Positions 4,871 to 43,091 of a DNA stretch of 64,000 nt are shown in pieces (position 1 is the stretch's first letter; each line of letters starts with the position of its first letter). Origin of the DNA: Leishmania infantum JPCM5 (lineage: Eukaryota > Euglenozoa > Kinetoplastea > Trypanosomatida > Trypanosomatidae); contig NC_009415.2 of assembly GCF_000002875.2 (NCBI RefSeq), positions 444,001 through 508,000 of the forward strand. The letters are read 5' to 3'. The notes below the pieces were generated by a model that saw only the letters and a list, made by a program, of their open reading frames with translations, did no database searches and was not told the origin of the DNA. The translations under genes were made by a program, and so were the position numbers.

Positions 4871-5995
4871 TGGGGGTTGGGTGCACGTGTGAAGCACGCC
4901 AGTCGTCGCCTTCTCTTTTTCGGCGTCCCAGCGACGGTAGTGGGGAGGGAGGAGGGGGGAAGTGGAAGGAGGAGCGGCGGCAACGAAAAGGAGAAAAGAT
5001 AAAGCCGAGGCAGCTTCACGAGTTTTGGCTCCGCGTAGATGTCTCACGCGTCGTGATGAATGCTCATGGATGGAGGTGCCCACTGAAAAGGAGATACGGC
5101 GGCGGAGGCAAGAAGACATGATAAGCAGCAACAAGACGCACATGGTAAGCCATAGGTGCTCAAGAGGTGCGTGTGCAAGTGATGCGATGGTCGGATTTTG
5201 CCCCTGCTAATACTGTTGTTGTGCTTTTCGTTTCGGTTCGCTCATTGAGTCGCGAGTGCAGCAGAGACAACCGGGAGGGGGAGGGCGTGAGATCTTGGCC
5301 CCTCTCAACGTAGCAAAATGTGCTGGTCGCTCACGCCGCTCGTTGTATTCTGTTTCTGTCTTGCTCCATCACGAAATAGCACACGCTTCAAAGAAGAAGT
5401 GATCACTGCCCACCATCGGATGTGCACACACGCACGGTGGAGCCCTCCCTTCCCCCACCCCACCCGACGCGTACAGAGATCGCACATTGCAGGCGTCCAT
5501 GAAGAGCTGCCTGTCGCTCGCAAGCAGAGGCACACAGGAGAAAACGAAAACGCCAGTGGAGAAGGCAAAACGAGCCGAAACGATACGTAACCCAAGAAGA
5601 GGAGAGGGGGGAGAGCGAACAAAAAAATAAGGGGTGCTGGTTAGTTGATGGGGCAGTTGGATAGAGCAAAGTGGGCTTGGGTGCATGTCGTCTTTTCTTC
5701 CACTCGTCAGCCGCTGGAAATCGGGGGGAGGGAAGCACTTCTCGGACGTATTCGCCGTCGTCAGTTGCTGGATGGATGGATGGGTTGTGTTGCGCTCTAT
5801 CCATCGACCCTGGCCGTTGTGTGGGACGCCTTGCGAATGGGGTGCACAGAAAAGGAGATGGGGGAAGTGCGGAACCAAAACACGTTCTTGGCGCTTGAAG
5901 TAGAGCGCTCCAAGCAACCAAGGCGAGGGTGGTTTCCTGTCGAGCACGAGCAGAGCGAAGCGTCTGAGAACGGGCGCTCTCTTTTTTCTTTTCAT
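4871..5995. other. Intergenic spacer
   Basis: Lies between the LRR gene and the first b5-like gene (3' UTR of the latter plus the LRR 5' region). It holds the pyrimidine tract and candidate acceptor for the LRR gene, and purine-rich plus-strand stretches. No gene or repeat element recognised. Confidence 0.5.
4915..4916 (-). promoter_or_regulatory. Possible spliced-leader acceptor AG for the LRR gene
   Basis: Read on the minus strand, a long pyrimidine tract (5000 down to about 4922) is followed by this first AG. That would give a 5' UTR of about 44 nt before the ATG at 4870. Inferred from the general trypanosomatid pattern, not mapped. Confidence 0.35.
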
Positions 5996-16507: not shown

Positions 16508-19500
16508 TCAAAACCGAACGCTGGCGAGATTCGGCCGCGCCTTCTCACACACCTGACAGTAGAACAAAGCATTGGGATTGAACTTGCTGCAGCCGCCATG
16601 CTCCACCGAGCACACCCAGTACCCCTCCGGGCACTCGAAGCCGCCGCCAAACGGAGACCTCTCAGCGCGCCCGCCACCTGACGCCTTCAGTGGACGCGGG
16701 TTTGGCGCCATGCAGATCTCGCACATCGGCTTCGCGCGAGATTCGTTGATAAACGTGCACACCCCACACTGCCATGGCGCGTCCGCACCATCGTCATCGC
16801 CCTCATCCTCCTCCCCAGTCCCGCCGGCCGCGGCATCGACGGCAGCCGCCATCGCCGCATCCTCGGCTACTCTCACAGACTTTGGCTTCGGGGCCATGCA
16901 CATGGAGCACATGTTGCTCGCGATCGGGTTCTGGAATGTGCATGCGTCACACGACCACACAGCGATACTGGCGGGCTGCGCTGCAGCTGCAGCCGGGCGA
17001 GGCGCGTGCGCAGCCTCGACCCGTTCGCGCAGCACCTCTGCGTTCAGGGGCGGTATCACAGCGAACAGCTCCTCGGCCGAGATGTAGTTCGCTGGGTCCG
17101 CCGAGGCGGCGGCTGCAGGTGGCGCGGACGCAGCGGAACAGCCAACTGCGCCGCGCTTCTGCTGCACAAGGAAGAAGAGCGACTGTGCCACCTCCTGCAC
17201 GCTGAGCGTTTTAAAGACAGCCGGAAAGCTCTCTGTCAGCATCTCCGCTACACGCTCTGCCGAAAACGCAGCAGAGGCGCCGCACGCGGAAAGCGCTTGA
17301 GATAGAGCCACAGTGAAGCTCTCAAAGCCCCGCTGCACCGGCTCCGCCTCGCGGCGCACGCGCTCCGACGCTTTCGGACGCGCGGCACGCACCACGACCT
17401 CCGCCATGTCCTCCATCCCCTGCTGCATGCGCTTGCCGACAGCCAGCTGGCGCAGATACGGCTTTTCAGCCTCAGAGACAAAGAGCATCGCGATTGGGGC
17501 ATCCTCCCAGTGGTTGCGACTGCGCCGGCGCACCCGCAGACACTCCGTGAAAAAGTGCAGCCGGTCGGACGGCGACATCGCTTCTAGCACCTCCTCCAAT
17601 ACGGCAAGCTGCTTGGTGGAATAGAACATGTCGCTGTTCAGGAAACGGTAGAGCAGCACCGCTCTGTCTGCCACCGCGTCGCACGTGCTCACATCGTAGC
17701 CGCCGCCACACGAACTGGTCGAGCTCAACTGCATGTGACGCAGTGCCTGTACGCCTTGGCGGTGCACGACCGCCGAAAAGGGCCCGGTGGCATCCATGTA
17801 GGCGCCGCTCGAGGCGAAGCGCAGCGCCAGGCGGAAGTTCCTCTGCACGTAGCGGGAGTGATGAATGAGCCAACGCATGGACTCGCCCTCCGCGAGAGTG
17901 AGGAGGCCGGAGCAGACCATCGTCGCCGCCTCGGACGACGACCCGCCGGTGGCGGCTTGTGGGGGAGACGCCGAAAGAGCGGCAGGGATGGGCACCCACT
18001 CCAGAAAAAGGAAAACGTTCTTCAGCCGCCGTTCTCCCACGCCATGCCAGTCCAGCCTGAAATAGTTGTCGCTCACGAGGTACTGCGATGGCACCTGAAG
18101 CTTCGGCTGGCTGGGCCGAATCTGGAAGGTGTTCATCTGGTAGAAGCAGCAGCCGTGTGTGGGTCGCACCGTGTCTGCCGCGATCGTGCCGCAGGTCCGG
18201 AGCGTGTCCACTGCCCACCCAATCTGGCTCTCGTCGTCGCGCGAAAATGCGGAGATGCGCTGTTCTTCCTGCTCCGCCTCCTGCTCCTGCTCCTGCTCCG
18301 CCTCCTGCTCGTGTACGATCTCCGCGTTTAGGTTCATCGTGTTGTGCACCCCTTCTTGCCCAGCCCCAGTGGCGCCCTTGCCGCTGGCTTCCTTGGCGGA
18401 GGCGCTACTGCCTCCCTCGGCGGCCGCCCGTGAACCCTGAATGCTGCGCCGCATGCGGTCAAGCAACTGCTCCACCAGCCCCTGCGACAAGGCGTCGCCT
18501 TCGATCAGCTCCTGCGAGCGCGCCTGCAGAATCTCCTGCAGGTGCTCGCTGAAGGAGGGAGCCTGGGCAATCTTTCCGGCAACGGGGTATTCGATCACCT
18601 CCCTGAACTCAGCAATAGCAGCGCGGAGAACGTCGACAGAGGGGAGCTTCAGCGCCGCATCGGCGATCGCAGCAGATGCGTCCTCTTCCGAGCTGGCGTG
18701 TTTGCCCGCTTCAGCGGCGCCGGTGCCCGCTGCCGGTCGTGGCAGGTGAAAGCGACGGCAGCGCATCCACCCAGTAAAGAGCTCTGGATGTGCGTTCGCG
18801 TGCCGAGCATCGTGCAAGAGGTGCGCAACCGCCTTCTTGCGCCACACATTCGCCAGCTCCTGCAGGGAGAGCTTGAAGAACTGCAGGCTCTCGACCTTCA
18901 TGGAGTTGAGGAGGAGCCACGCTGGAACGTCCTTGAGCATGTCGCCAGTGCGGTACCGAGACCCCAACGCCTCCTGAATGCGGGAGACCACCTCGGGGAT
19001 CAGATACAAGCACAGCCGCTGCCCTTTGCCGATGCCACGCATGCGATACGCACCCTGCGCATAATCGCGTAAGACGAGATCCTTGCCAAAGGTGATGACG
19101 GCAACTGCTGTGGACGACTGCTTCACATCCGTGCCGGTCGTGTGCACCTGGTCAAAGAAGGTAAAGCGGCGAGCCAGCGGCACACCGCACTGGGAGACCG
19201 GGATGACGAGGCCGTTGTCTCGCTGCAGAATCATCTGCCGATCCCGCCTGTCAAGAAAGACGACGCCATCGAACAGAGCTGCTGGCAGCCGCGCCAGAAG
19301 GTAGCGAGCCACCTCCTCGTTGTCCATGTTCGTGATGAGAGCGCCAGCGTCGATGAGGGCCGAGTACGGCGGCTGCGCTGCGGCTATGCGGTCCAGTAGC
19401 CGGAGCGGAGTCCAGCTGTCCGGTAGCACCTCGGCATGGACCACCTCGGGGTTCGTGAGAACCGACAGCACACGTCCGTCACTGCCAGGTTCGTAGAAGC

Positions 19501-22500
19501 ACTCACCAAGGTCCAGCGGCAGAATGTTGCTCGGTGTCCCACTGAAGCCTATCCTCTTTGTGAATAGCATCGAGGAGCCGAGCTCGTGGCCGCAGGCGCT
19601 GATCTTCAGTCGCTGAAAGTTCATCGTTCGCGGAAAGATAGTAGAGCACAGGTAGTAGTGGATCACCTCCGGCACGCCGTGCAGCAGGTGGTAGAGCGAC
19701 TGCATCTGCGCCTTGTCCGTCACCTGCAGCTGCGACAGCGGCACACCGGCGCGCTCGAATGAGCGAAGTACGTCCTCGTTGTCATCTGCCACGGTCTTCT
19801 CGGTGGCCGCCGCGGCGGCCGCGCGGTCCGAGGAGCTCAGACGCAGCCAGTGCTTGTACAGCTTTGCCGCCGGGCGGTGCTCCTTCGGCCCCGCCTGCCG
19901 CGCAAAGTCGCGTTTCAGCTGCGTCACGAGCTCCTTCACATCCTGCAGGCGTAGTCCCTCGTAGCGAAAGGCAAGGATTGTAAGCCCGATGACCACATCC
20001 GGATGCGCGAACTCAGAGCTGCGGCTCGGCACGTCCTTCGCGACGAAAGGGACGGCCGTCATCTTTCGGCTGTACGGAATCCGCGCTGAATCACCGCTGA
20101 GGGCCAGATCGTTCGGCTGCAACACGCCAAAGCTGACCCGGTCGATCTTGGCGAGCACATGCGGCAGCAAGCGATGAAGCCAGTCGTGTGCGAGGTTCAG
20201 CAGCTGCAGACCGTAGTGAGGCATGTACGCGTTCAACTCGCGAGATACGCAGCTTTCCGCGTCGTCGAGTTTCACCGGGGAGAGCAAGAACGGCTTCGTC
20301 TTCTCGGCAAACGCATCCGAGGACACGTAGGCCCAGTTCTGGCGCTCCTGCTCTGGAAGGTGGTCCATCAGATGCTCGTGCAGCCACAGCTGCAGCCACG
20401 GCACGAGCACCGGCAGCAGCTGCTCGACGTAGTAGTGGCCGGGGTCGAGCAAGACCAAGTGCGGCTCTCGCTGAAGGGCGCGCTGGCGGAAACCGGTGAG
20501 AATGACGCTGCGGATGGCACTCAGAGCGTACCGCCGCTTCTCCTCCTGAACGCCCCTCATCTCCGCCAGCGACGAGCCACCCAAGCGCGCCGAGTTAGCA
20601 GTCTGGCTAGATGAGCCGCACTCCAGCTGCCGCTGCACGTCCTCGCACGCTCTCCCTTGCTGACTCGCAAAGATGCCATCCAAAAGGTGGATAGGCAGCA
20701 GCCAACGAGGGCCGCTCATGTCGATGGGGTGCTTGAGGCCGATCGGGAAGTTTAGCTCCGAGCGCAGGGGGTGCAGGAGTACATCGACCTCGTCCATAAT
20801 CAGCACACCACGCTTCCACAATTCCAGAATCGGCGTGATGGCGTCCGCCAGGGCAGACCGCTCCATCATCTTGCGACGCAATGCCTTTATGTGAGAAGCA
20901 TAGCGGTCATCTGCCGCCTCGTCCAGCTCCATGTCCTCCGTGGGCACGCTCTCCATCATGTGCAGCTGCTCGATCCCCTTCAGGAAGAGCGACTTGACAC
21001 ATTCAGGTGCGGCGATCACCACCGAGCGGTCTTCCTCCGCAGATTTCAGCTTCTGATAGAGCAGCTCCACTCCATCGCTCGTGCCCTCCTCATTGCTACG
21101 GTCGAACTGCACCGTGTAGATGTGCTTCGTCACGACGACGCCGAAGCAGCGGCGCAGAATGCCACGCGTCTGCTCCAGCAGCGCTGTCGGCATCACCTGT
21201 GTGATGAGCTGCTGCCCATCGGCGAGGATGAGGGCCAGCAGCGGTCCCACGACAGTGGTCTTACCTTGGCCCATGATCATCTGCTGCACACGCGACTGAC
21301 CTTCGCGGATGTTGCGCACAAACCACTCCACCATCTCCACCTGGCGGGCACGCAGGAGAATGTTGAAAAGGAACTCGAAGACAAGAAAGCGGGGGTCGAG
21401 GGTTGCTCTGAAAGAGCTGTTGCTTGCTTTGCCTGCCGCTCCCCCGGCACTCGACGACGCCGCCGAGGAGGAAAAGTCAGGATGGATGTGGACGTACGTG
21501 CGACGTGCCGTCAGCGTATCGAGAGCAGCGTTCGCCAGCTGCTGCAGCCGGCTAGTCACGGTCCGGCGAGTGTCCTCTGAAAGAGGGACGCACGTGTCCG
21601 ATGCACCTGTCGCCTCCGCATCACTTGTGCCAGTACTTGCGTTCGTGATGGTTGGCGCTGCTGTCGTGAGCTGCTGGAGCACAGACGGATCGATCTCGAG
21701 CGAGAAGTGCTGCACCAGCTCACGAATGCGTGCCGCGCGGGCCTGCACAGTGCTCTTGCTGCCACAAGCTGTCATCTCCGCGTGAGGAGGCACGACACCG
21801 CGAAGGTGTCCGCACAGCTCCAAGAACAAGAGGAGCTGCTGCACCGCCTGCGCTGCCTGCTCCGCAAAGTACATGCGGTTGCTTAGCAGCATGAGAAGAA
21901 TGAGCTCCGCCTGAATCTGCTGCAGGGATCCGTGAAAGAGGTTCTCGGCCTTGAGGTCGCTCTGGAGGGTAGTGCTCAGCAAGCCGGCACACAGCCACTC
22001 AAGCGGTACGGCAACACGCGAACGTTCCGCTCGCTGCAGGTAGTGCACCAGGCGTCCGCGATCAAGCGACTGTGCGCCAGCAGCAGAGACGCCGTTGTTG
22101 CTGTGAGAGGGCTCCGTAGACGACCTTGGGTGAACATCATTCGCCAAAGACAGCAGCGACGAGCGTAAACGCATGACGCGATCGGCGTCCTGCTCTCCCA
22201 GCGCGCGCAGCTGCCGCACACAGTCGCCCAGCACCGTCACCGCCGTCGCCAGAGACGCTGTCATGACCGCCACATCTGGGGTGGTCAACAGCTCCCGCAC
22301 GATGTCCTTGGAGAGGCACTGGAAGTAGCGGGGCCGCTGAGCCTGCTGCTGGCTGCGGAAGCGCATGGAGTCCTCCTCCAGACGATCCAGCATGTTCTGC
22401 GCCAGCGGGGTGCGAGAGAGAGGATGAGTTCGCAGATCGAAAGGCAGCACAGACACCGACGGGGACACCGGCGGCGCAGCTGGCTCGCCCTCAGCGATAA

Positions 22501-25500
22501 CACTTTGGGCCAGCTGCAGCGAGCTCAGCGGCTCGGTGCAAAGGGCCTGCAGTGAAGAGCGGCGCAGGGCCGCCGCGGCAGAGTCGCCCTCCGCGTTGTC
22601 ATTCTGGAAGTAGTCGACTGAGATGTCCGCCTCATTCAACTCTACCTGATCGCGGCCTGTGTCGCCTGGCACCACGCGGCCACGCAAGTGGTCCCTCATA
22701 AGCACGGTCACCTTCTGGCTCGCCGGTGTGCGCAGCCGACTCATCTGGCGCGCCTCGCGCACTGCCTCGGTAATGTGGTCCGTCTTGAAGTGCTTCTGCG
22801 CCACGCGGTGAATGGCGTTGAAGAGCTCCGGAATGGTGCCGCGCCGCCGGCGCACCGCGGTCTCCTGGTCCCCGATGATCAGCCCATGGGAGTGCTCGCT
22901 TGCTTCGTACTCCTCCGTCAGCGACACGCCGCGGGCGAGGATGTAGCGCTCTGCGTTGTCCGCCGGTGCGGGCCAGTCCGTGTGTGGAAACATCTCCATC
23001 ATCTGCAGTACCGTGCTGCACCAAGACGGTGCCATCTCCGTCTCACTCCCCTGCTGCTCCTCGCGTCCCCAACGAGAGTGCCGCAGCTGGAACCAGCGGG
23101 CGAGCAGCTGCGAAAGGGTGACGCCGACGTGCTCCTCGCCAATCGTCGGCACCACTGTGTTCCGCTTCATGCAGTAGAGAAAGTAAAACCCCTTCTTCGT
23201 GTTTGCACCACCTTCCTCATCCATGAGCAGCTGATCTGTCCACAGAAACTCGACAAGCTTTTCGTCCTTGACCATCTCTGGGCTCTGCAGCTGGTAGCAG
23301 ACGCGCTTTAGCTTCTGTGGTGCGATGCGTTCCCACGGGTACAGCAGCAGCCGCTCCCATGGAAACCGGCAGCGCTCCAGCGCGGGAGTTTGCACAACCA
23401 CCGGCACCGTTGCCGGCCTGCCTGATTGCTTGTGCTCCAGCTTCATCAGCCCGGCATACAGCTCTAGCTGACTGCGCACCATCGGGGTCGCCTGCGCGCA
23501 GCGCTTGAGCAGGTCTAGAACCTCACCGCGCGACAGTCGACAGTCCTCTGCCACGTGGTGCTTCGTCATCAAATAATCCGACAGCTCGGTCGCCAGCGGC
23601 CACTGGTAGGTGTTCAAGCTGTACTGCACCGCGTGAGCCAGCTTCAGCCGAACCGCGCACGCGTCGGGGAAGCGATCCGCCATGGTGCGCTCGAACAGCG
23701 CGAACATAAACCCCTCCTCGGTGGAGAAACTGCTGTCCGTGTAACAGGACTCGAGAGTGCGCATGGCGCCTGCGTAGTGCTGCGTCGCACACTGCATAAC
23801 GGCATAGTAGAGCGACGCCGACAGCGACGGCGGCATCACGAAGCTGCTGCTACTGTGCACGACGTAGACGTAGAAAGGGGACGGTACCGCCTCCCTCCAC
23901 GTGTAGGACGAGCGGTCAAAGAGAAGCATCGGATTGAACGGGTCGTCGCTGATCTTCATGGGCGCAAAGTCGTGGTTCGGGCACAAGAAGGCGACCTCGC
24001 GCGTGCTGTTGCAAAGGAGAAGACACTGCTGAAACGGCGCTTGTAGCGCCCGCAGCTGCCGCCAGCGAGCCGTGTGGAAGTCGTCCCACTCGGCGAGGCG
24101 CCAGCCCGGCTGATCCGCCAGGAACAGTCGAGCGCGACTGCTTGAGCCGTCTGTGCTCGTGTAGAAGCGGACACGCAGCCGCGGCATCTCAATTAGCTCT
24201 ATTTGGACATAAGTTCCTGTGTCGGTCGTGTCCTCCACGCGCAGCGAGTGCGCCGCACCTTCGTCCGCTGAAGCAGCATCGCACTTTGCCTTGCCCGCAG
24301 CTGAGCAGCGACGGCCCCACGCCAGAATATGAGAGCAGTCCTCGATGCGCGTGAGCATCTGCAGCAGATACGAGAGGTTCCGACAATGCAAGAGGTTCAC
24401 CAGCACGTAGTCGCACGTCTCCACTGCCCGCTGTGTCTTCGCTACCATCTGCGCTAGTTGGTGCCTCTTACTGCCACCCTCTTCGCCGCTGGCCTTCGCA
24501 TCCTTCTTCACCATGGCGAGCAGTGCATCTGCGTTTGCAGCGGAGGAGGCCCACGTCAACGCCGACGCAATGTCGCCTCGAGCCTGCCGCAGCAGCTGCA
24601 TGCACACGCCCTTGGGGAGGTGAGAAAGTGCCTCGTGAAGCAGCGCCACATCGGCGTCAGCGATCCGTATTGGGTCACCGCCGCTCTCGTCTTCCTCGTT
24701 TGCGTGAAGAGCGTCAGTCGACAGATCCATCGAGCCGTCGCCGCTCGTGGCGCGCTCCAGCATGAGGCGGTGCGCGGCACCCTGCGCCTCCGCCATGGTC
24801 TTGGTGCGCGCCGCATCCGCTGCCGCGTCAGCCGACGATGCCGCACGCTTCTCCTCAACGATGGCAGAGTGGCCCTTGTCATTGCGGCGCACCACCACAC
24901 ACGCCGACGATGTTGCCGGTGATGAGGCAGCCTCACCAATTGCACCGCTACCACGTCGGCCCAAGTGCAGGTGAACCTCGATGCTGTAGTTGAACCAGTG
25001 GTCCATCACCTCTCCCCGCGCTGGCTTGCGCTTTCCGGCCCCAGACGCGGCGGCGTCCGGCAGGACGGAGGCAGTCTCGTTCTCCTCCGAGAGCGGGTAC
25101 CCGCGCAGCACATCGTCCTCGCCCTGCCACATAAAGAACGACTCCAGCAGCACACTCGGAATCAGCCCCTGCAGCAGCCTTGCCGGAATGTACACCTCAC
25201 GACCACGGATTGCCTCGTTGTAGCGGTGGATTTCCAGCGTGCTTTCGTTGAAGATGCGCCTCTTCAGTTCGCCGGCCTGAAATGCCGTGACCGCCAGCGA
25301 CTCGCGCGTGCGTGTCCCTGTCAGCAGCGCCATACTGTGCAAGCAGTAGTGCTGGTTTGTGCTGTAGACAAGCGAGCGGTACAGCTTGCGGGCGTGCGGC
25401 ACGAGGTTGTATATTTCTATGCGCGGCTGCGGGTAACGGTAGGCTACAGCCTCCTTCCACGTTGCCCGATCGGTGTCGCTTTCGTACTGGGGGGCGTCGT

Positions 25501-28500
25501 TCATGAGGAAGCGCATCTCGTAGTGGTGCAGCGCAGGCACCATCAGGCGCTCCCCCTCCTCCTCGTTGCCGACGTCGCTGGCTGCCACCGTCGACAGCGC
25601 AGGGGCCAGAGGGTAGAACCTCATCCCATTCGGGAACGCGGCTCGCAGAATGTCTCGCAGCATGTTGACAGCCCACCGCTCCTCCTTGTGCGGCCACGGG
25701 TTGTCGTCGTCCACAGCGATGACACGGTCGTAGGTGACGCTCTCGAAAAGCGCGCTCTCGACCGACTCCGCTGGCCAGTTGCCGGCAATTACAAACGGGT
25801 GATGCACACCTTGATCGGACAGGTCCGGCGGTGCCGTCCATTCAATCACGTCGTACGGCGTGCCCACCAGATGCACCCAGTGCCGGTGTTCGTGGCGACT
25901 CACCAGGCCACACTGCAAGGTGTCCTTGCCCAAGATGTTTTCAAAGTCGGTGAAGTGCGACATGCTGTCCGGGACGGGCTTCAGCTCGTCGTTGCGCCAA
26001 AACAACTCGCACGTCTGAGCATGGAAGAAGAGCCCGCTCGACGCCGGCCCTTTGTAGACGCCAGGAGCCGAGATGGACCACAGCGGCGTTTCCTCGCGCT
26101 GCGAGCAGCGCTCGTGAGGGGCGTGGTCCTCGTCATCGTCGTCCATCATAGCATCCAGGTTCACGGCGCTTGCACGGGCTGACACGCTCGTGGAGCGGCT
26201 GCGGCGAAGGCGCCTGCGGTCTTGCAGTGTTCCTGAGGCAGGCGCATCACCTGCAGACTCGGTGTGGTCGCGGAGAACGGACTGAACGATCGACAAGAGC
26301 ACCGCGCCGCGCCGCTGCGGCGTCATCTCGTCCAGAAATGACGTGATCAGATGGTGATCCTCTAGCAGGTCGCAGAAGAGTACATTTTCCGGCACATCGG
26401 CTGGCGGCAGCTTCAGCAGCTTCGACTCGGTCGTGCTGCTCGGGTCGCTGTGTATCAAGTTCGGAACGCGCACCGTGTCGTTGTAGTTGCGGCTGCGAAT
26501 CTGCACAAAGACAGCGCGGCGACGTCCGCCACTCATCATAAGCTGCTTGCCCTGCTCAAGAAGCTCCTTGGAGACGCGCGACGTGTTCAAGCCCTGTGCC
26601 TGCAGGAAGCGCAGCATCTTTTCCTCCGGCGTGAGCAAGCTGTCTCCCTCTTGGGCCGCGAGCTGGCTGCGCTGCATGCCCATGCCAAACCCGTGGCGTG
26701 CTCGCACAAACGCATACGATCGGAGCATGCGAATCAGGTGCGCATGCGGGTCCTCCGCAGGCGCGGCGCTGGTTGCCCCGGACCGAAAACTGCCATGCTG
26801 CCCACCGCCCGCGCCAGAAGACGCCGCCGCCGCCGACGCCGACAGTGAGTCGTACCCCTTCCATAGCGCGCGGTCCACCCGACTCATGTGGGCGTGAATG
26901 ACGCACTGCGTCGGCGTGTCGGTGTTCTCCTCACTCTCCTCCAGCCACGCCCACAACAACGGCTGCACCGTGGCGACAAAGAATTGCAGAAAGTGGCGGT
27001 GATACTCCTCTATGACGCCCAAGGCGCCCTCGCTGCGGCGGCTCTCCGCCGCCTCCTCGCTTTCCTCCGTCTTTGGCGAGGCAGCCGGTGCCGTGCGGGG
27101 GGCCTCCGCCTGCCGCTCCCGCTGTTGGTAGGCGATGAAGCGGCAAAAGGACAGCACATCACACAGCAGCCCGACGACAAAGAGGACGTAGGAGGCATTG
27201 CTGCTGTACACGGAGCTGGGGCCGAGCTCCGTGATGCTCTCCAAGAGGCTCCGCAGCGGACGAAGCACGCTGGTCGGCGCGTGCGTCAGCTCGCTCATAA
27301 GCAGCCCATACGTGGTTCCAAGGCAGTCCTCGTAGTTTTGCTGGCTCAGGTCGCCGCGTAGCCGACGCAGCTCCACCATCTCGCGCTGCTCCTTGCTCAG
27401 CCGCATAGGGACAGAACGGGGATCGGCGTGGCTCAACACGGCCGGAGAGGCGTACGCAGCCGGTTCGAACAGCACCGCACGCAACACCTCTTGCACTTCG
27501 TACACAAACAGGTATGTATGCCGGTCCTGCGAAGCGAAGAAGTCGAGGACGAGCGGGATCCGCACATACGGCGCGGTCAGGCATGACAGCAGCACCTCCG
27601 ACTCTTCCACATTCATCGTGCCGGCAAACGTCGGCAGCACCTTTGCGTGCAGCACGTCGTCCTCGGTGGGGTGGTCCACCTCAATCATTCGTGACACGTC
27701 GATGGGCGAGTGCAGCGCCAGGCCCTCGCCGTACATGACCTCGCGGTCGCCAAAGCCCTTGACGGCGATGTCGGCAATGTCCATGTCACGCCCACGCACC
27801 ATTAGGCACTCCCACCGCGGCGGTGCTGGGCGGGTTCGCCATCCGGCGCTCATCTGCCGCCCTGGTGCGTCCTCCTCGAACGAGATGCGCCACGAGGCGA
27901 GTGCGTCGAGCTCCTTGCGGCGGTGCAGCAACTGTGCGTCGCGCATTTCCATGGTGCCCATAAACTTCGCCAGCAGCGTCATGTCTCGCATCATTCCGAA
28001 TGCCGGATGCTCCTTCGCCAGCGGTGAGCGGTTGCTGCAGAGCCACTCCATCAGCTTCTCCATCTCCGACGAGCCACCGCCAAAGAGACCCCCGGACTGC
28101 TCCAGTGAGTATCCTGCGTTGGCCAGCACTGATTTAAGGAAGTCGACGGTGTGGCTGCCCTTGAAAAGCTCCAGCTTGTCCGGCATCCGCAGGTCGAACA
28201 GCTCATGGCCGGGTCGCATCTTCTGCTGCTCCTCAATGTACCGCAGCATGGCGGAGCGAATTGGGAGCAGGCGCGGTCGAGTCAGCTGCAGTGCCGCTGC
28301 CACGGACGCAAAGGCGATGTTCTGCTTGCCCTGCGTGGTGGAAAGGAAATAGCCGCAGCCGCCACCGGTGTTCAGCAGCATGGAAATCATGCGGCACTTG
28401 TCGCTACCTTTCACCTGCCGCAGAATGGCATCGAAGACGAGCAGCATGTCCATCGAAATGAGACACCGCTCCGCATCGAAGCTGCGCGTCGGCGTCTCGA

Positions 28501-31348
28501 CAGCCTGCCAGGCATTCACCAGCGACAGCATTAGGTAGTACACGCACTCCAACATCGTCAGTTGCGGGTCGGCGGCATGTGGGTGCGGCACCACACCTCC
28601 CTCTCCCACGGGCGACTGCAGCGCTGGTGGAATGATGTCCTCCGTATAGAAGCTAGACACACACCACCGCTCCTCTTGCGGCACGGCATCGATGGTGTAG
28701 CTCGCGGGCAGGGGCACAGGGATCAGCGTGGAGAAGATCCACGTGATGAACTCGATAATCTGCAGCTGTACGGCGACGCGAGAGGCGGTGCCGCTGTTGC
28801 CGGCGCGCCTCCACAGCGTCTCCACGACGCTTCGCACGCGCGGCAGGAGCGCGAACAACTCGGCGTAGTTTGTCGCCTTGGTCAGGCCATGGACGTCAGG
28901 CAAGGACGGAACGGACGACTGGAAAGCTGGGCCGTAGTAAGCGGCGACCGAGACCTTGGGGAGGAGCTCAGCGTTCTGGAAGACACCTTCGCGAGCAACG
29001 TCGATGGGCTCCTGCACCATGGCGTCCACCGTACGCTGCGGGCATGACGATGCTGTGGATGCGCCACCCGTGACGCTTGCGGCGCTCGCTGTCGTGCTGG
29101 TCCGCACCTCGCTGGCTGCCTGAATCAGCTCCTGCACGTCGTCCTGCGGGAGTGCGTCAACCACTGCCTCGACGGCGTGCACGAGCTCCACAACGTGTTG
29201 CACCACGGCATCACTGTCAGCGACCGGAGGCTGACCGCGGTCCAGTCGCTTCTTCGTGTGGTGCGCCAGCTGACTCGCACCAACGCGTAGTAGCTGCACG
29301 TCTGTGGCAGAAAGAGGGACCGCGCCTTTCCATGGACCGTCCGGGAATTGAGCCGCCTCAGGGTCGGACTGAAGCGCTGAGATGCCCTGCCGGTGCAGCA
29401 GCTCTCCGTCTCTCTGAAAGACGAGAAGCTCCGGTACCTTGACCAGCTCCATCGCGTTGAGCACCTCAACGCACGGGTACGTAGCACGCGGAAAGTCGAA
29501 GAGGGCGCAGTGCTCCTCGTAGTCATCCTGCGTCTCGTCGCAGCTGAGGAAGATGACCTCGACGGCGTCGGGGCCGCACTTCTGCTTCATCACTGTCACT
29601 GCCTCCGCCAGCAGCGTCGACGTCTCCTTGCCACTCGGGACCCTCAGGCTCCCGACAAACAACAGCACCATCTTGTCGCGGAAGTCGGTGTCGGGCAAGA
29701 TCTTGTTCTGCTTGTCCTTGATGTACACCCGATTGTCTGTGAGACGCAGCCAAACAGCGCCCAAGGACAGGTTGGCGGCCGTGTCGTTGATGCCGGCGGC
29801 CTTGAGGCGGCCAAGCGCAGCGCGCAGCTGCGCGTCCTTGGTGCTCGGTGCCGGCGATCTGGATGCCGTCGGCGCGGTCTGGACGCTGTCGGCGCATGTC
29901 AGGGAAGTCGAGTCGGTCAGAAAGCGGCGCGAGTAGCGCGAGAGGTCTTCGGCAGCCCGCGCAAAGAACTCGTACTTGAGCACGTACTTGATGCGCTTCT
30001 TCTCAAGAGCCGTCAACGCAGGGTAGTACTGCTCTAGGATATAGCAGAAGGCGGTGATGACGGATTTGATGCCGCTGGAGGAGCTGCAGATGGGGCTCGC
30101 CGCATTACGGTGGATGAACGGTGTGAATGGCGAGTCGGTCGACGACGCAGGCGAGGGCGACATCTGCTGCTCGCTATCCGCTGCGCCGCCTGTCATCTGC
30201 AGAATCATCTCGGTGGTGAAGCGGGTGGTCGTCAGATGCAGGGAGCCGGCTTGGCCACTCCTGTTCGAGTTCACGTCGTCTTCGTGGCGTCGCCCCTCCG
30301 GCAGCTTCTCCACCAGCCACGGCAGCAACACATCGTAGAACACCTCAGCACGGATGAACTCTGACTGGTTCTGCGGGTCGTTGCGCCGCATCCACAGCGA
30401 CAGCAGCAGCAGCCAAAACGTTTTGTCCTGCAGCCGAGTCGATGACACGTCCTGGAACTTGAGAATGGGGCAGCTCAATATCTTCTCCGCCGTCTGCCAG
30501 CGCGGGTGGTAGCCCTGCCCTTCGCTGCCGCGATTGACGACAACAAAGTCAAACACCTCAGCTGCCCTGCGGTGCACGAGAAGAAACATAATGGTGTACG
30601 AATGAGTGCCAATCCAGCCAGATGGGATCATCGTCCACTCCCCGGTCGGCAGGCTTGTGATGCGATGCACGCACCTGTCCACCACCCCCAGAACGGTCGC
30701 CGGCTGCACCGCCTTGCTAGCCTCTACCGTGAAGTCGTAACAGGAGCGGATAGCGCCGTGTGCGCGCTGTATGGCGGTGCGCAGATCGACAGAGATGTCC
30801 TGCAGAAAAGGGTGAGACACTTCGGCGGCACCCCTCTGGCCCAGCGCCTGTAGCAGCTTCGTGCTGGCGGCGGACGGGTTGGGCCTGCTGCCTGCGCCGA
30901 GGGTATTGAGACGGCAGAGAATGACATCCATGCAAAGCAGTGTCAGGAGCGTCGTGCCGCCCTCCAAGGGCTCGCCGCGGCCACCCACATACGGGTCCGC
31001 CAGGAAGCCGCCATACGCGGGCAGGCGCCAAAATCGGTAGGGCAGATTGCGCAGCCGGCGCTCTCGCTCCTCCTCCTTCTTTTTCTCCTCCGCCGACGGC
31101 GCGTTGGCCTTGACCACCTCCGCTGCCGCCGACCCGATGAGCATCAGCTTCGTCTTCTCCTTGATCCCCAGGGCAGACAACAACGTGTCATCCGGCTTCG
31201 CTTGCAGGTTTGGCTTGCCCAGCAGCTTCTGCAGTGGGGGAAGGACATTGGTGGCATCGTAGATGGCTGCCTTGAGGGTTCCAAGCGTCGCATCCTCCGC
31301 TACCTCGATGTCGTGCTTTGCAGAGCCAAACTTCACTTCAATGCGCAT
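16508..31348 (-). CDS. Giant ubiquitin-like/NZF zinc-finger protein with SecA/SF2-like core (4946 aa)
   Basis: A single 14.8 kb exon. Order of parts: a ubiquitin-like domain (residues 1-75, MRIEVKF...); a thioredoxin-fold-like segment (about 550-690) with no CxxC; a UBA-like helix bundle near 2220-2265 (GDIASALTW); an ATPase-like core with MIMGQGKTT (about 3359), LIMDEVDVLL (about 3517), FAHPDVVIGLT (about 3780), GFSGTPSN (about 3934), TTGTDVK (about 4069) and YRMRGIGKGQR (about 4105); an EQ-rich stretch near 4340; and at the C-terminus two RanBP2/NZF fingers (WSCDACTFQN near 4795, WQCGVCTFIN near 4858) and a third cysteine finger (near 4909). The core resembles the DUF3638/DUF3645 giant proteins of fungi and other eukaryotes. 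Both NZF fingers carry the TF pair plus a hydrophobic residue between the last cysteines (CSMC, CEIC), a known ubiquitin-binding signature. A ubiquitin-linked role is inferred; no protease site is evident. The ATG at 31348 fits the ubiquitin-like fold. Confidence 0.9.
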   Translation of the reverse strand: MRIEVKFGSAKHDIEVAEDATLGTLKAAIYDATNVLPPLQKLLGKPNLQAKPDDTLLSALGIKEKTKLMLIGSAAAEVVKANAPSAEEKKKEEERERRLRNLPYRFWRLPAYGGFLADPYVGGRGEPLEGGTTLLTLLCMDVILCRLNTLGAGSRPNPSAASTKLLQALGQRGAAEVSHPFLQDISVDLRTAIQRAHGAIRSCYDFTVEASKAVQPATVLGVVDRCVHRITSLPTGEWTMIPSGWIGTHSYTIMFLLVHRRAAEVFDFVVVNRGSEGQGYHPRWQTAEKILSCPILKFQDVSSTRLQDKTFWLLLLSLWMRRNDPQNQSEFIRAEVFYDVLLPWLVEKLPEGRRHEDDVNSNRSGQAGSLHLTTTRFTTEMILQMTGGAADSEQQMSPSPASSTDSPFTPFIHRNAASPICSSSSGIKSVITAFCYILEQYYPALTALEKKRIKYVLKYEFFARAAEDLSRYSRRFLTDSTSLTCADSVQTAPTASRSPAPSTKDAQLRAALGRLKAAGINDTAANLSLGAVWLRLTDNRVYIKDKQNKILPDTDFRDKMVLLFVGSLRVPSGKETSTLLAEAVTVMKQKCGPDAVEVIFLSCDETQDDYEEHCALFDFPRATYPCVEVLNAMELVKVPELLVFQRDGELLHRQGISALQSDPEAAQFPDGPWKGAVPLSATDVQLLRVGASQLAHHTKKRLDRGQPPVADSDAVVQHVVELVHAVEAVVDALPQDDVQELIQAASEVRTSTTASAASVTGGASTASSCPQRTVDAMVQEPIDVAREGVFQNAELLPKVSVAAYYGPAFQSSVPSLPDVHGLTKATNYAELFALLPRVRSVVETLWRRAGNSGTASRVAVQLQIIEFITWIFSTLIPVPLPASYTIDAVPQEERWCVSSFYTEDIIPPALQSPVGEGGVVPHPHAADPQLTMLECVYYLMLSLVNAWQAVETPTRSFDAERCLISMDMLLVFDAILRQVKGSDKCRMISMLLNTGGGCGYFLSTTQGKQNIAFASVAAALQLTRPRLLPIRSAMLRYIEEQQKMRPGHELFDLRMPDKLELFKGSHTVDFLKSVLANAGYSLEQSGGLFGGGSSEMEKLMEWLCSNRSPLAKEHPAFGMMRDMTLLAKFMGTMEMRDAQLLHRRKELDALASWRISFEEDAPGRQMSAGWRTRPAPPRWECLMVRGRDMDIADIAVKGFGDREVMYGEGLALHSPIDVSRMIEVDHPTEDDVLHAKVLPTFAGTMNVEESEVLLSCLTAPYVRIPLVLDFFASQDRHTYLFVYEVQEVLRAVLFEPAAYASPAVLSHADPRSVPMRLSKEQREMVELRRLRGDLSQQNYEDCLGTTYGLLMSELTHAPTSVLRPLRSLLESITELGPSSVYSSNASYVLFVVGLLCDVLSFCRFIAYQQRERQAEAPRTAPAASPKTEESEEAAESRRSEGALGVIEEYHRHFLQFFVATVQPLLWAWLEESEENTDTPTQCVIHAHMSRVDRALWKGYDSLSASAAAASSGAGGGQHGSFRSGATSAAPAEDPHAHLIRMLRSYAFVRARHGFGMGMQRSQLAAQEGDSLLTPEEKMLRFLQAQGLNTSRVSKELLEQGKQLMMSGGRRRAVFVQIRSRNYNDTVRVPNLIHSDPSSTTESKLLKLPPADVPENVLFCDLLEDHHLITSFLDEMTPQRRGAVLLSIVQSVLRDHTESAGDAPASGTLQDRRRLRRSRSTSVSARASAVNLDAMMDDDDEDHAPHERCSQREETPLWSISAPGVYKGPASSGLFFHAQTCELFWRNDELKPVPDSMSHFTDFENILGKDTLQCGLVSRHEHRHWVHLVGTPYDVIEWTAPPDLSDQGVHHPFVIAGNWPAESVESALFESVTYDRVIAVDDDNPWPHKEERWAVNMLRDILRAAFPNGMRFYPLAPALSTVAASDVGNEEEGERLMVPALHHYEMRFLMNDAPQYESDTDRATWKEAVAYRYPQPRIEIYNLVPHARKLYRSLVYSTNQHYCLHSMALLTGTRTRESLAVTAFQAGELKRRIFNESTLEIHRYNEAIRGREVYIPARLLQGLIPSVLLESFFMWQGEDDVLRGYPLSEENETASVLPDAAASGAGKRKPARGEVMDHWFNYSIEVHLHLGRRGSGAIGEAASSPATSSACVVVRRNDKGHSAIVEEKRAASSADAAADAARTKTMAEAQGAAHRLMLERATSGDGSMDLSTDALHANEEDESGGDPIRIADADVALLHEALSHLPKGVCMQLLRQARGDIASALTWASSAANADALLAMVKKDAKASGEEGGSKRHQLAQMVAKTQRAVETCDYVLVNLLHCRNLSYLLQMLTRIEDCSHILAWGRRCSAAGKAKCDAASADEGAAHSLRVEDTTDTGTYVQIELIEMPRLRVRFYTSTDGSSSRARLFLADQPGWRLAEWDDFHTARWRQLRALQAPFQQCLLLCNSTREVAFLCPNHDFAPMKISDDPFNPMLLFDRSSYTWREAVPSPFYVYVVHSSSSFVMPPSLSASLYYAVMQCATQHYAGAMRTLESCYTDSSFSTEEGFMFALFERTMADRFPDACAVRLKLAHAVQYSLNTYQWPLATELSDYLMTKHHVAEDCRLSRGEVLDLLKRCAQATPMVRSQLELYAGLMKLEHKQSGRPATVPVVVQTPALERCRFPWERLLLYPWERIAPQKLKRVCYQLQSPEMVKDEKLVEFLWTDQLLMDEEGGANTKKGFYFLYCMKRNTVVPTIGEEHVGVTLSQLLARWFQLRHSRWGREEQQGSETEMAPSWCSTVLQMMEMFPHTDWPAPADNAERYILARGVSLTEEYEASEHSHGLIIGDQETAVRRRRGTIPELFNAIHRVAQKHFKTDHITEAVREARQMSRLRTPASQKVTVLMRDHLRGRVVPGDTGRDQVELNEADISVDYFQNDNAEGDSAAAALRRSSLQALCTEPLSSLQLAQSVIAEGEPAAPPVSPSVSVLPFDLRTHPLSRTPLAQNMLDRLEEDSMRFRSQQQAQRPRYFQCLSKDIVRELLTTPDVAVMTASLATAVTVLGDCVRQLRALGEQDADRVMRLRSSLLSLANDVHPRSSTEPSHSNNGVSAAGAQSLDRGRLVHYLQRAERSRVAVPLEWLCAGLLSTTLQSDLKAENLFHGSLQQIQAELILLMLLSNRMYFAEQAAQAVQQLLLFLELCGHLRGVVPPHAEMTACGSKSTVQARAARIRELVQHFSLEIDPSVLQQLTTAAPTITNASTGTSDAEATGASDTCVPLSEDTRRTVTSRLQQLANAALDTLTARRTYVHIHPDFSSSAASSSAGGAAGKASNSSFRATLDPRFLVFEFLFNILLRARQVEMVEWFVRNIREGQSRVQQMIMGQGKTTVVGPLLALILADGQQLITQVMPTALLEQTRGILRRCFGVVVTKHIYTVQFDRSNEEGTSDGVELLYQKLKSAEEDRSVVIAAPECVKSLFLKGIEQLHMMESVPTEDMELDEAADDRYASHIKALRRKMMERSALADAITPILELWKRGVLIMDEVDVLLHPLRSELNFPIGLKHPIDMSGPRWLLPIHLLDGIFASQQGRACEDVQRQLECGSSSQTANSARLGGSSLAEMRGVQEEKRRYALSAIRSVILTGFRQRALQREPHLVLLDPGHYYVEQLLPVLVPWLQLWLHEHLMDHLPEQERQNWAYVSSDAFAEKTKPFLLSPVKLDDAESCVSRELNAYMPHYGLQLLNLAHDWLHRLLPHVLAKIDRVSFGVLQPNDLALSGDSARIPYSRKMTAVPFVAKDVPSRSSEFAHPDVVIGLTILAFRYEGLRLQDVKELVTQLKRDFARQAGPKEHRPAAKLYKHWLRLSSSDRAAAAAATEKTVADDNEDVLRSFERAGVPLSQLQVTDKAQMQSLYHLLHGVPEVIHYYLCSTIFPRTMNFQRLKISACGHELGSSMLFTKRIGFSGTPSNILPLDLGECFYEPGSDGRVLSVLTNPEVVHAEVLPDSWTPLRLLDRIAAAQPPYSALIDAGALITNMDNEEVARYLLARLPAALFDGVVFLDRRDRQMILQRDNGLVIPVSQCGVPLARRFTFFDQVHTTGTDVKQSSTAVAVITFGKDLVLRDYAQGAYRMRGIGKGQRLCLYLIPEVVSRIQEALGSRYRTGDMLKDVPAWLLLNSMKVESLQFFKLSLQELANVWRKKAVAHLLHDARHANAHPELFTGWMRCRRFHLPRPAAGTGAAEAGKHASSEEDASAAIADAALKLPSVDVLRAAIAEFREVIEYPVAGKIAQAPSFSEHLQEILQARSQELIEGDALSQGLVEQLLDRMRRSIQGSRAAAEGGSSASAKEASGKGATGAGQEGVHNTMNLNAEIVHEQEAEQEQEQEAEQEEQRISAFSRDDESQIGWAVDTLRTCGTIAADTVRPTHGCCFYQMNTFQIRPSQPKLQVPSQYLVSDNYFRLDWHGVGERRLKNVFLFLEWVPIPAALSASPPQAATGGSSSEAATMVCSGLLTLAEGESMRWLIHHSRYVQRNFRLALRFASSGAYMDATGPFSAVVHRQGVQALRHMQLSSTSSCGGGYDVSTCDAVADRAVLLYRFLNSDMFYSTKQLAVLEEVLEAMSPSDRLHFFTECLRVRRRSRNHWEDAPIAMLFVSEAEKPYLRQLAVGKRMQQGMEDMAEVVVRAARPKASERVRREAEPVQRGFESFTVALSQALSACGASAAFSAERVAEMLTESFPAVFKTLSVQEVAQSLFFLVQQKRGAVGCSAASAPPAAAASADPANYISAEELFAVIPPLNAEVLRERVEAAHAPRPAAAAAQPASIAVWSCDACTFQNPIASNMCSMCMAPKPKSVRVAEDAAMAAAVDAAAGGTGEEDEGDDDGADAPWQCGVCTFINESRAKPMCEICMAPNPRPLKASGGGRAERSPFGGGFECPEGYWVCSVEHGGCSKFNPNALFYCQVCEKARPNLASVRF

Positions 31349-36205: not shown

Positions 36206-38611
36206 CTACTCGATAAGGTTCAGCACAATACCGCCCATCTTCGACTGGAACACCGGTGCAAACACAACGGAAATGATGGCCATGAGCTTGATGAGAATAT
36301 TGAGCGCCGGGCCTGAGGTATCCTTGAGCGGGTCGCCGACGGTGTCACCGATGACGGCGGCGCCGTGCTGCGGGGAGCCTTTGCCCTTGTTTTTGTCACG
36401 CAGGCCACCCTGCTCAATATACTTCTTCGCGTTGTCCCACGCACCGCCGGTGTTGGAGGCCGAGATAGCCATCTGCACGCCTGACACGATCGCGCCGGGC
36501 AGCAGACCGGCCAGAGTGTACTTCCCGAAGAGAATGCCAACCACGATCGGGGACAGCATCACCAGCGCCGCCGGCGGAATCATCTGGTTCAGAGCAGCCT
36601 TAGTGGCAATGGCCACGCAGCTCTCGTAGTCTGGCTCCTTGCGGCCCTCAGCCACTTCAGGGTCCTGGAACTGACGGCGGATTTCGTTCACCATGTCCAT
36701 GGCCGCAACGCCGACAGACTTCATCGTCATTGCGGAGAACCAGTACGGCAGCATGGCGCCGAAGAGCAGACCAGGCATCACGCGCGAGTCGAGGATGTTC
36801 ACCACGGGGATCGCCACACGCGACACGTAGGCGCCGTAGAGTGCCAGCGCGACAAGCGCAGCCGAACCAATGGCGAAGCCCTTGCCGATGGCAGCGGTTG
36901 TGTTGCCAGCCGCATCCAGTGCATCCGTGATCTCGCGAATCTCGTGGCCCATGTGCGACATCTCCGCAATACCGCCGGCGTTATCGGAAATGGGACCGTA
37001 CGCGTCGATCGTCAGGGCGACGGACATGGTCGAGAGAATACCGAGCGCGGCGAGGGCAAAGCCGTACACGCCGCACATGCGGTAGGACACATAGATCGTC
37101 GTGCACATGGCGAGGATTGGGGGCACCACAGAAAGGTAACCGAGTGCCAGGCCGTAGATGATGTTCGTGGCGGCACCTGTCTCGCATGCCTCCGCAATCT
37201 CCTGCACTGGGCGGTAGGCATTGGAGGTGTAGTACTCGGTTGTGTAGCCGATGATAAGGCCAGACCAGAGACCGCACAGGACGCAGATGAGGGCGCCCCA
37301 GCGCGAGCTCTCCATGCCGCCCACGCTGAAGGTCGGCGGCAGCGCCACTTCGGTGAGAAAGATCAGCACAATTGTCGCGCCGATCGTCGACAACAGCAAC
37401 TGACGCTTCAGGGCCGGCTCGATGTCGTGAGAGCGGTGCACGCCGCTATTGGTGGCGCCCATAGTGGCCACTACAATGCACACGATCACACCGACGGCCG
37501 TGATGAGCAGCGGGTACATCATGGATGTGAAAGAGGCTGTCAACTCAGCAGAGCCGGCCGCCACTACGAGCGCAGCGCATGACGCCTCGCCGAAGCTGCC
37601 AAAGAGGTCAGAGCCCATGCCAGCGATGTCACCCACGTTGTCGCCAATGCAGTCGGCAATCACGCCAGGGTTGCGCGGGTCGTCCTCAGGGATATTGTTC
37701 TCCACCTTGCCCACAAGATCAGCTCCAACATCGGCAGCCTTGGTGTAGATGCCGCCACCCACACGACCGAAGCAGGCGATGGCCGACCCGCCAAGGCCAA
37801 ACGCCGCCACGCATTCGTACAGCTCCGGTATCGTCTCGACACCGCTGCCAAAGTACGCCGCCACAACCTTCACGGTGGCGAATAGCGCGAAGAGACCCAT
37901 CGAAGTGAGGCCAAAGCCCATCGTGATACCGCCGCGGAGAGCCGTCTGGAAGCCGAGCCTAAAACCGCTGGCCTGATCGCCGTCATCGCCGCCAGAAGTC
38001 GCCATCACAGCCGTGCGCGCGTTCGTGTACACGGCAATGCGCATGCCGATCCAGCCTGCCCCCACCGACGTGACTGCACCCACCAGGAAAGCAAACAGGG
38101 AGAGGCTAGCGTTCATCCATGGGGACTGCGGCGGCACGTGGCCCTCCTGAGGCGAAGAGAGCGCGATGCCGAGAAGGAAGAAGATCAGCGTGCCGAAGCC
38201 AGACATGAACACGGCCATGTACTTGTACTCGGACATCAAGAACGCTGTGGCGCCTTCGGATATGCGAGTGTAAATTACGTACACGTTGCGCATCACCTCG
38301 TCCGTGAGATGGGCATTGCGCAGGCCCTGATCCTTACCAGGGGTAATCTTGATGAATGACAGGGCGTACCACCAGTACATGGCAAAGGAGAAGCCCACTG
38401 CCGCCGCCAAGACAATCACAACGGAAGCCGTCTCAGCCGACATCAGCGGGCGCGCTAACGGCGCCGCGTTAATGTCCCCTGCATTCTGGGCAACGGCTTT
38501 GTCTACGTTGGTATTTGCCGGCGTCGCAATCGGATTCAGTGGTTCCTTGGCCGCAACTGCGACCGCGAGGAGAGCAACGGCAAGAGGGACAATCAAAATC
38601 CTCCCAGCCAT
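36206..38611 (-). CDS. VP1: Vacuolar-type H+-translocating inorganic pyrophosphatase (801 aa)
   Basis: A membrane enzyme that couples pyrophosphate hydrolysis to proton pumping; in trypanosomatids it acidifies acidocalcisomes. Motifs present: the substrate-binding DVGADLVGKVE and following PEDDPRNPG and DNVGD (from about residue 293), and the C-terminal acidic motif GDTVGDPLKDTSG. GNTTAA (about 568) has alanine at the position that distinguishes K+-dependent type I enzymes from lysine in type II. Multiple membrane spans fill the rest, and the N-terminus (ILIVPLAVALLAVAVAA) looks like a signal peptide, as in other protist type I enzymes. The frame extends 31 residues upstream, but ATG 38611 follows a CTTCTTAG acceptor-like site and gives the expected length of about 800 residues. 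It lies inside the segment bounded by the inverted SIDER-like repeats. Confidence 0.97.
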   Translation of the reverse strand: MAGRILIVPLAVALLAVAVAAKEPLNPIATPANTNVDKAVAQNAGDINAAPLARPLMSAETASVVIVLAAAVGFSFAMYWWYALSFIKITPGKDQGLRNAHLTDEVMRNVYVIYTRISEGATAFLMSEYKYMAVFMSGFGTLIFFLLGIALSSPQEGHVPPQSPWMNASLSLFAFLVGAVTSVGAGWIGMRIAVYTNARTAVMATSGGDDGDQASGFRLGFQTALRGGITMGFGLTSMGLFALFATVKVVAAYFGSGVETIPELYECVAAFGLGGSAIACFGRVGGGIYTKAADVGADLVGKVENNIPEDDPRNPGVIADCIGDNVGDIAGMGSDLFGSFGEASCAALVVAAGSAELTASFTSMMYPLLITAVGVIVCIVVATMGATNSGVHRSHDIEPALKRQLLLSTIGATIVLIFLTEVALPPTFSVGGMESSRWGALICVLCGLWSGLIIGYTTEYYTSNAYRPVQEIAEACETGAATNIIYGLALGYLSVVPPILAMCTTIYVSYRMCGVYGFALAALGILSTMSVALTIDAYGPISDNAGGIAEMSHMGHEIREITDALDAAGNTTAAIGKGFAIGSAALVALALYGAYVSRVAIPVVNILDSRVMPGLLFGAMLPYWFSAMTMKSVGVAAMDMVNEIRRQFQDPEVAEGRKEPDYESCVAIATKAALNQMIPPAALVMLSPIVVGILFGKYTLAGLLPGAIVSGVQMAISASNTGGAWDNAKKYIEQGGLRDKNKGKGSPQHGAAVIGDTVGDPLKDTSGPALNILIKLMAIISVVFAPVFQSKMGGIVLNLIE

Positions 38612-39216
38612 CTTTACGCTCGCTAAGAAGAAAAAGAGCCACAAAAGGGTGTGCAGAGAATTCCTACGTCGTATATAGGGGAGGGGATGCACAAGAAAGA
38701 GCAAAAGAAGAAAGGCGATATCTTACTGGTCGAGAATACTACTGTGTTTGGCTGGGACGTGAGGGAAGAAAAGAAGGCAACAACAGACAGAGAAGTGGTG
38801 TGCATGTGCAAAGAGTCGAAGAAAGGCGGCAGTGCAAGTTCTCTGGTCACGTCAGCCACGAAGACATCCAGCGGTTTCACAGGAGCATACGCAGCGTTTA
38901 TTTGGCGTTGCCAGTGAGACAAGATCGGTTGAAACTTGGTGATAGCGCAAGTGAATAGCGAGATGCGCGTTTTTTTTTCGCTCCTGTTCGCAGGTGCTCA
39001 GTCATACATCGGGGACTTCCACAAAAGACAGCGAAGGAAGCGAACAACAAAGAATGAAAAGAAAGTCTGCCTTTTGCCACGAAACCGAAGCGTACGCTGT
39101 TCGGCATTCTCTTTTTTATGTTTTCGGGCGGAAGCAAAAACGCAAAGCAGCTCTTCTGAGGCGGTAGCCACGTACACCCGACACATACGCAGGCACCCGC
39201 TTGGTTCCTATGGCTG
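38612..39216. other. Short intergenic spacer
   Basis: At 605 nt this is the shortest spacer in the window, between the 898-aa LRR gene and the pyrophosphatase. It contains the pyrophosphatase splice signals and nothing else recognised. Confidence 0.6.
38664..38665 (-). promoter_or_regulatory. Possible spliced-leader acceptor AG for the H+-pyrophosphatase
   Basis: On the minus strand a pyrimidine-rich run (about 38715 down to 38680) precedes GACGTAG, giving a 5' UTR of about 52 nt. A second candidate (CTTCTTAG, AG at 38624-38625) sits only about 12 nt from the ATG. Inferred. Confidence 0.35.
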
Positions 39217-42901: not shown

Positions 42902-42972
42902 GCGCAGTTGGTCTAGTGGTAGAATTCTCGCCTGCCACGCGGGAGGCCCGGGTTCGATTCCCGGACTGCGCA
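42902..42972 (+). tRNA. tRNA-Gly: tRNA-Gly (anticodon GCC)
   Basis: A complete cloverleaf: the 7 bp acceptor stem GCGCAGT/ACTGCGC, the A box TGGTCTAGTGGTA, an anticodon loop containing GCC, and the T arm with GGTTCGATTCC. The discriminator is A. A TTTT run follows within 10 nt and can serve as a Pol III terminator. No intron. It is on the opposite strand to all protein genes and converges on tRNA-Glu. Confidence 0.97.
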
Positions 42973-43019
42973 CCCCTTTTCCTCCCTACGGAGGGAGGGC
43001 CAAAGACGCGCAGAAAAAC

Positions 43020-43091
43020 TTCCGATGCCGGGGATCGAACCCGGGTCTAGCGGGTGAGAGCCGCTTGTTCTATCCACTATACCACATCGGA
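43020..43091 (-). tRNA. tRNA-Glu: tRNA-Glu (anticodon CTC)
   Basis: Read on the minus strand, the acceptor stem TCCGATG/CATCGGA pairs fully, the D arm has TGGTATAGTGGATAGAAC, the anticodon arm is AGCGG-CTCTCAC-CCGCT (anticodon CTC), and the T arm has GGTTCGATCCC. A GTTTTT run just beyond the 3' end is a likely terminator. It converges on tRNA-Gly with 47 nt between the mature ends. Confidence 0.97.

Follow-up and report, generated by a model that had tools for sequence, protein, structure and literature searches.

What kind of machine is encoded by the giant gene in this piece of the Leishmania infantum JPCM5 genome? The window, i.e., the whole stretch of 64,000 nucleotides that was analysed (contig NC_009415.2, positions 444,001 to 508,000, from an assembly of 32.07 Mb in 75 contigs), carries on its minus strand, at 16508–31348, a gene whose reading frame starts with ATG and stays open over 4,946 codons. 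All features of its product described below lie on that strand and are given in window coordinates. The product is 100% identical to a Leishmania donovani protein (P0002) over the region searched. Its assignment to the DUF3638/DUF3645 family, made from general knowledge in a first-pass annotation of the letters alone, was borne out by Pfam, in which both domains scored above their curated cut-offs. DUF3638 (PF12340; 104.7 bits against a cut-off of 31, E 5.9e-30) spans residues 3313–3558 (20675–21412), and DUF3645 (PF12359; 55.3 bits against 25, E 4.1e-15) spans residues 3759–3790 (19979–20074) around a PSRSSEFAHPD signature. The evidence suggests a superfamily 2 (SF2) ATPase with intact catalytic residues and a plan closest, of the solved structures it matched, to that of SecA; it would pull, unfold or extract protein clients recruited through ubiquitin, and we give this reading an even chance.

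The motifs reported by the first-pass annotation were located as single occurrences and in the order claimed. These are GQGKTT (motif I or Walker A, residues 3360–3365, 21254–21271), MDEVD (motif II or Walker B, residues 3518–3522, 20783–20797), SGTP (motif III, residues 3936–3939, 19532–19543), TTGTDVK (motif V, residues 4070–4076, 19121–19141) and YRMRGIGKGQR (motif VI, residues 4101–4111, 19016–19048), with the DUF3638 domain belonging to the first lobe and covering motifs I to II. Conservation was counted on 120 listed homologues of the 172 found, which is the set behind every homologue count given here. Residues K3363, D3519, E3520, D3522, S3936, G3937 and T3938 are invariant in all 120, while T3364, G4072 and D4074 are identical in 119 and Q4098, R4102 and R4104 in 118. 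Over residues 3315 to 4186, by contrast, the Leishmania residue is kept at the median column in 39% of the homologues. Set against this background, the near-invariance of the catalytic residues indicates that the motifs are not due to chance, and it argues for a functioning ATPase across the whole family. Counted as patterns, Walker A was present in 119 homologues, DE-x-D in 120, GFSGTP in 117, HTTG-x-D in 118 and R-x-RGI in 107, with SEFAHPD of the DUF3645 signature present in 115. A conserved R-Q-V lies approximately 24 residues upstream of Walker A, where the SF2 Q motif was looked for. Conservation along the protein is highest in the motor, in which motifs I, II, III, V and VI are all present, conserved and in the order that defines SF2.

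The motor core of 891 residues (residues 3300–4190, 18779–21451) was modelled with AlphaFold2, and the model was compared with the PDB by Foldseek and by VIA realignment. It shows two RecA-like lobes, as the first-pass annotation had anticipated, and a two-lobe SF2 fold is thus strongly supported at the level of prediction. By its secondary structure, the model places motifs I, II and III at strand ends of the first lobe and motifs V and VI mostly in loops of the second; the structural match and this topology imply that the motifs would share a common cleft. Between motifs II and III lies a mostly helical insert of approximately 400 residues (19559–20749) which is flanked by two strands. The spacing from motif to motif is 417 residues here, with a median of 359 (314–568) in 117 of the homologues. 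The second lobe is followed in the model by a helix of 50 residues (residues 4137–4186, 18791–18940) that may take the position of the scaffold helix of SecA.

SecA structures ranked first among the PDB matches by VIA. The first 16 of these extend to model residues 883–891, the long helix included, with 376–520 residues aligned, and the matches to Bacillus subtilis SecA stop near SecA residue 620. DEAD-box, RIG-I, INO80 and Mfd structures follow closely after SecA in the same comparison, and Foldseek puts SWR1, DNMT5, DinG and MDA5/RIG-I near the top of its matches. The two-lobe fold and the motif order of the core are also those of the SF2 helicases (DEAD-box, RIG-I-like, SNF2, XPD/DinG), though for DEAD-box and RIG-I proteins fewer residues were aligned (324–340). 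The DEAD-box matches end at model residues 848–852, whereas those of RIG-I also enter the long helix, to 873–881. In XPD/DinG proteins, too, a helical domain (Arch) separates motif II from motif III, and motif III reads SGT; they are possible nearer kin of the core, and DinG was ranked third by Foldseek, with a TM (template modelling) score of 0.26/0.27, and was not among the best 50 rows of VIA. SecA is therefore best described as the closest, yet not the sole, structural analogue of the predicted core.

A relationship to SecA was also sought at the level of sequence profiles. A PDB profile search of the core with E up to 10 returned nine matches which were of low complexity or due to chance (Huntingtin among others), with neither SecA nor another SF2 protein among them, and hhalign of the core against Escherichia coli SecA alone gave a single chance match of 23 columns. 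An alignment of 29 SecA sequences was then used, from which nine of 37 fetched loci had been left out as they had no frame with both motifs, and in which three rows (L006, L008 and L009) share a contig and are apparently fragments of one frame. Against it, a global run with the core gave no useful match, and the whole core in the lobe-wise type of comparison gave out-of-register matches beside Walker A. Lobe 1 was in register only at Walker A (E 0.0036) and Walker B (E 0.018), both local and non-significant, and nothing useful was aligned for lobe 2. Homology to SecA by sequence was rejected on the basis of these comparisons. Of the parallel to SecA and SF2 translocases drawn in the first-pass annotation, the structural part was supported, at the level of prediction, by the two lobes and by the top PDB match after realignment, while a profile relationship was not found. 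As the core resembles SecA in plan but gave neither a significant profile match nor a SecA family match, it is called SecA-like in architecture, and not a SecA.

The ubiquitin-related modules lie outside the motor. For the N-terminal ubiquitin-like domain (residues 3–72, 31133–31342) proposed earlier, the Pfam match remained below the cut-off (PF00240, 20.4 against 25.4 bits, E 4.4e-4), but the solved domain of UBLCP1 was matched (E 2.1e-4). The domain is still considered likely to be present because PF00240 is listed for a homologue (P0021). The two C-terminal Npl4-type zinc fingers (NZFs) were found as described, with the RanBP-type finger family PF00641 above its cut-off in two stretches (the counts being those of Pfam), at residues 4798–4822 (16883–16957) and 4859–4884 (16697–16774). 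Both read CTF...C-x-[M/I]-C and fit W-x-C-x2-C-T-F...C-x-hydrophobic-C, a TF/hydrophobic pattern which we take to be a ubiquitin-binding signature. Three features go beyond the first-pass annotation, namely a thioredoxin-like domain (described below), a further C-terminal zinc-finger-like motif and a UBA/CUE-like domain. The zinc-finger-like motif (W-x-C-x6-C...C-x2-C, residues 4911–4939, 16532–16618) has its pattern in 65 of the homologues. The putative UBA/CUE-like domain, modelled as three helices and degenerate in this protein, lies at residues ~2220–2294 (24467–24691). It was the sole reasonable VIA match within a model of the middle of the protein, residues 1780–2795, for which the predicted local distance difference test (pLDDT) was 73.8 and the predicted TM score (pTM) 0.68 with 20 sequences; no Foldseek match to this model was obtained at E ≤ 0.001, and a homologue search with a piece of the middle returned two proteins.

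In the mechanism proposed here, the lobes would open and close under the drive of ATP and thereby pull, unfold or extract protein clients. The UBA/CUE-like domain and the C-terminal zinc fingers would bring these clients in by way of ubiquitin, and the N-terminal ubiquitin-like domain would dock the protein to machinery of the ubiquitin or proteasome kind. Contact with the client would fall to the conserved insert, which would stand in for the preprotein-binding domain of SecA. Several points limit this reading. The lead of SecA over DEAD-box proteins amounts to only ~1.3 Z units by VIA, searches of Pfam and NCBIfam at E ≤ 1 detected no SecA family (TIGR00963 or the SecA families of Pfam), and translocase action and ubiquitin guidance are proposed from the domain content. 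The analysis shows the motifs, their conservation, the domain content and a predicted fold; ATP hydrolysis, ubiquitin binding, a protein substrate and pulling are inferred.

Nucleic acid is the substrate of most SF2 proteins, and this protein may instead be an RNA or DNA translocase or helicase in which the ubiquitin domains serve regulation or recruitment, an alternative that we consider possible but doubtful. It would account for the helicases that follow SecA in both structural comparisons; in addition, the Q-x3-R-x-R spacing of motif VI resembles that of RIG-I-like helicases, and some RanBP-type fingers bind RNA. Such fingers are, however, the only nucleic-acid-binding accessory domain noticed among the domains of the 120 homologues, whose commonest accessory domains are of thioredoxin and ubiquitin kinds, and the core is neutral in charge. 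Many SF2 proteins work as switches, and the total length of this protein, ~5.5 times that of its motor, would suit an ATP-dependent switch or giant scaffold in ubiquitin signalling, with lobe closure on ATP and no processive pulling. The middle regions are well conserved, and residues 1780–2795 have no fold match beyond the UBA/CUE-like unit. We regard this alternative as unlikely: SF2 motors use motifs V and VI to link hydrolysis to motion, and here both are almost as conserved as Walker A and B.

Two further explanations are given very little weight. Many database entries bear the name ubiquitinyl hydrolase 1, which would make the protein a deubiquitinase, and the regions with no assigned fold could conceal a new catalytic fold. 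This label is considered unsupported, since Pfam at E ≤ 1 gives no peptidase family; the sole OTU-named match is OTU1_UBXL (E 0.025), over the ubiquitin-like region, and the greatest conservation is in the motor, so that a deubiquitinase is judged highly improbable. The OTU1_UBXL domain is presumably non-catalytic. Least credible of all is a true SecA descendant driving export through a Sec-type channel. SecA does provide the best structural matches, but the family searches and the non-significant agreement at Walker A and B speak against descent, and the ubiquitin modules suggest residence in the cytosol or nucleus. The SecA-like, ubiquitin-recruited ATPase acting on protein stays the preferred reading.

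Among the matches listed, the named homologues come from at least trypanosomatids, Bodo, oomycetes, dinoflagellates, a choanoflagellate, Thecamonas, Pelomyxa, a thraustochytrid and chlorarachniophytes. A fold search of predicted viral structures gave ten matches at E ≤ 0.001, nine of which cover most of the core (840–964 columns, gaps included). These nine belong to Harvfovirus, Hyperionvirus, Fadolivirus, Hokovirus (four entries), Yasminevirus and a Megaviridae sample; the best is that of Harvfovirus (E 1.9e-31, TM 0.60 by query length), and seven go by the name of DUF3638 or ubiquitinyl hydrolase. The one match left over is an SNF2 ATPase. Two sequence scans of viral contigs confirmed none, with patterns drawn from the homologues and hence uninformative on absence. 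A scan of prokaryote contigs matched two contigs of metagenome-assembled genomes (MAGs), the longer of which (9,947 bases) is nearly all one frame (P0111, 3,315 aa); the family search was positive in one of the two MAG genomes and in none of 14 control genomes. A homologue of 900 aa (P0212) is also named 'archaeon'. A prokaryotic origin was rejected, as these contigs and this protein are probably eukaryotic contaminants of metagenome bins.

The literature searched, with most subscription papers and all bioRxiv preprints outside it, yielded no functional study of the family, no link between SecA and DUF3638/DUF3645 proteins and no mention of DUF6606. Four papers in it contain DUF3638 and one contains DUF3645. 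DUF3638 appears in a table row of PMC6237848, is marked within one microsporidian large gene family in a part of PMC5423893, and is listed with nine copies among the expanded genes of Hypomyces in a passage of PMC6627653; a passage of PMC12615304 terms the precise mechanism undefined. Passages of PMC8195603 and PMC3482391 mention SecA-like domains that occur apart from the usual secretion ATPase, and do not name the DUF3638 family.

Elsewhere in the protein, the thioredoxin-like domain (PF13905, E 3.8e-11; residues 559–649, 29402–29674) is without the C-x-x-C active site, with SLRVPS in place of the expected W-C-x-x-C. The pattern [WYF]C[GPAS]P[CS] was found, anywhere in the protein, in 19 of the 74 homologues with such a domain (P0021 and P0026 included), and the looser [WYF]CxxC in 70, though the latter also catches the C-terminal zinc finger. 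The most conserved block of 100 residues outside the motor, residues 1201–1300 (27449–27748), has no Pfam family and reads EDDVLH...LPTF...ESE.LLS.LT.PY.RIPL.L.FFA..DR. An acidic, glutamine-rich stretch (E-Q-E-A-E-Q-E-Q-E..., residues ~4346–4363, 18260–18313) follows the motor and is conserved in distant homologues. Other features of the window include an H+-pyrophosphatase (PF03030, E 3.6e-238; 36206–38704, minus strand), a tRNA-Gly(gcc) on the plus strand adjoining a tRNA-Glu(ctc) on the minus strand (42902–43092), and, at 59281–63906 on the minus strand, an ABC transporter that has its membrane and its ATPase stretches in two copies each. A frame of 736 aa (55677–57887, minus strand) weakly matches the dynein microtubule-binding stalk (25.1 bits against a cut-off of 24), perhaps as a mere coiled coil.

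Compared with known systems, the protein does not differ in essentials from other DUF3638/DUF3645 proteins, which share both domains, the size and the motor (in kinetoplastids, oomycetes, choanoflagellates, dinoflagellates and others), except for a UBA-like unit that is degenerate here and a thioredoxin domain that lacks its C-x-x-C. Widespread in protists and also present in giant viruses, the family is very large, motor-bearing and ubiquitin-linked, yet it is filed as a DUF or a peptidase. Like SecA, the protein has DEVD and a motif V with G-T-D, and its model shows two RecA lobes, an insert separating motif II from motif III and a long helix behind lobe 2. It differs in a larger, mostly helical insert (motifs II and III are 182 residues apart in E. 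coli SecA, with a median of 177 (164–238) in 26 of the 29 SecA sequences), in motif VI, in its ubiquitin modules and in its eukaryotic host. Taken further, and tentatively enough that we would sooner expect it to fail, the family may represent a single-chain pulling motor of the cytosol or nucleus, guided by ubiquitin and working by the SecA mechanism, an unfoldase class apart from p97 and the proteasome that is ancient in protists and is found in giant viruses of the klosneuvirus kind as well. Protein remodelling that depends on ubiquitin would then also be driven by a motor that is not of the AAA+ class, and secretion would not be the only setting for a mechanism like that of SecA. The proposed task is that of p97/Cdc48 with Npl4 and of the 26S proteasome, i.e., ubiquitin-guided pulling, and the likeness is one of functional analogy only. 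Npl4 itself bears an NZF, though the Npl4 NZFs match this protein weakly (E 0.11 and above), and whereas the unfoldases of p97/Cdc48 and the 26S proteasome are AAA+ hexamers, this protein is a putative single-chain SF2 motor.
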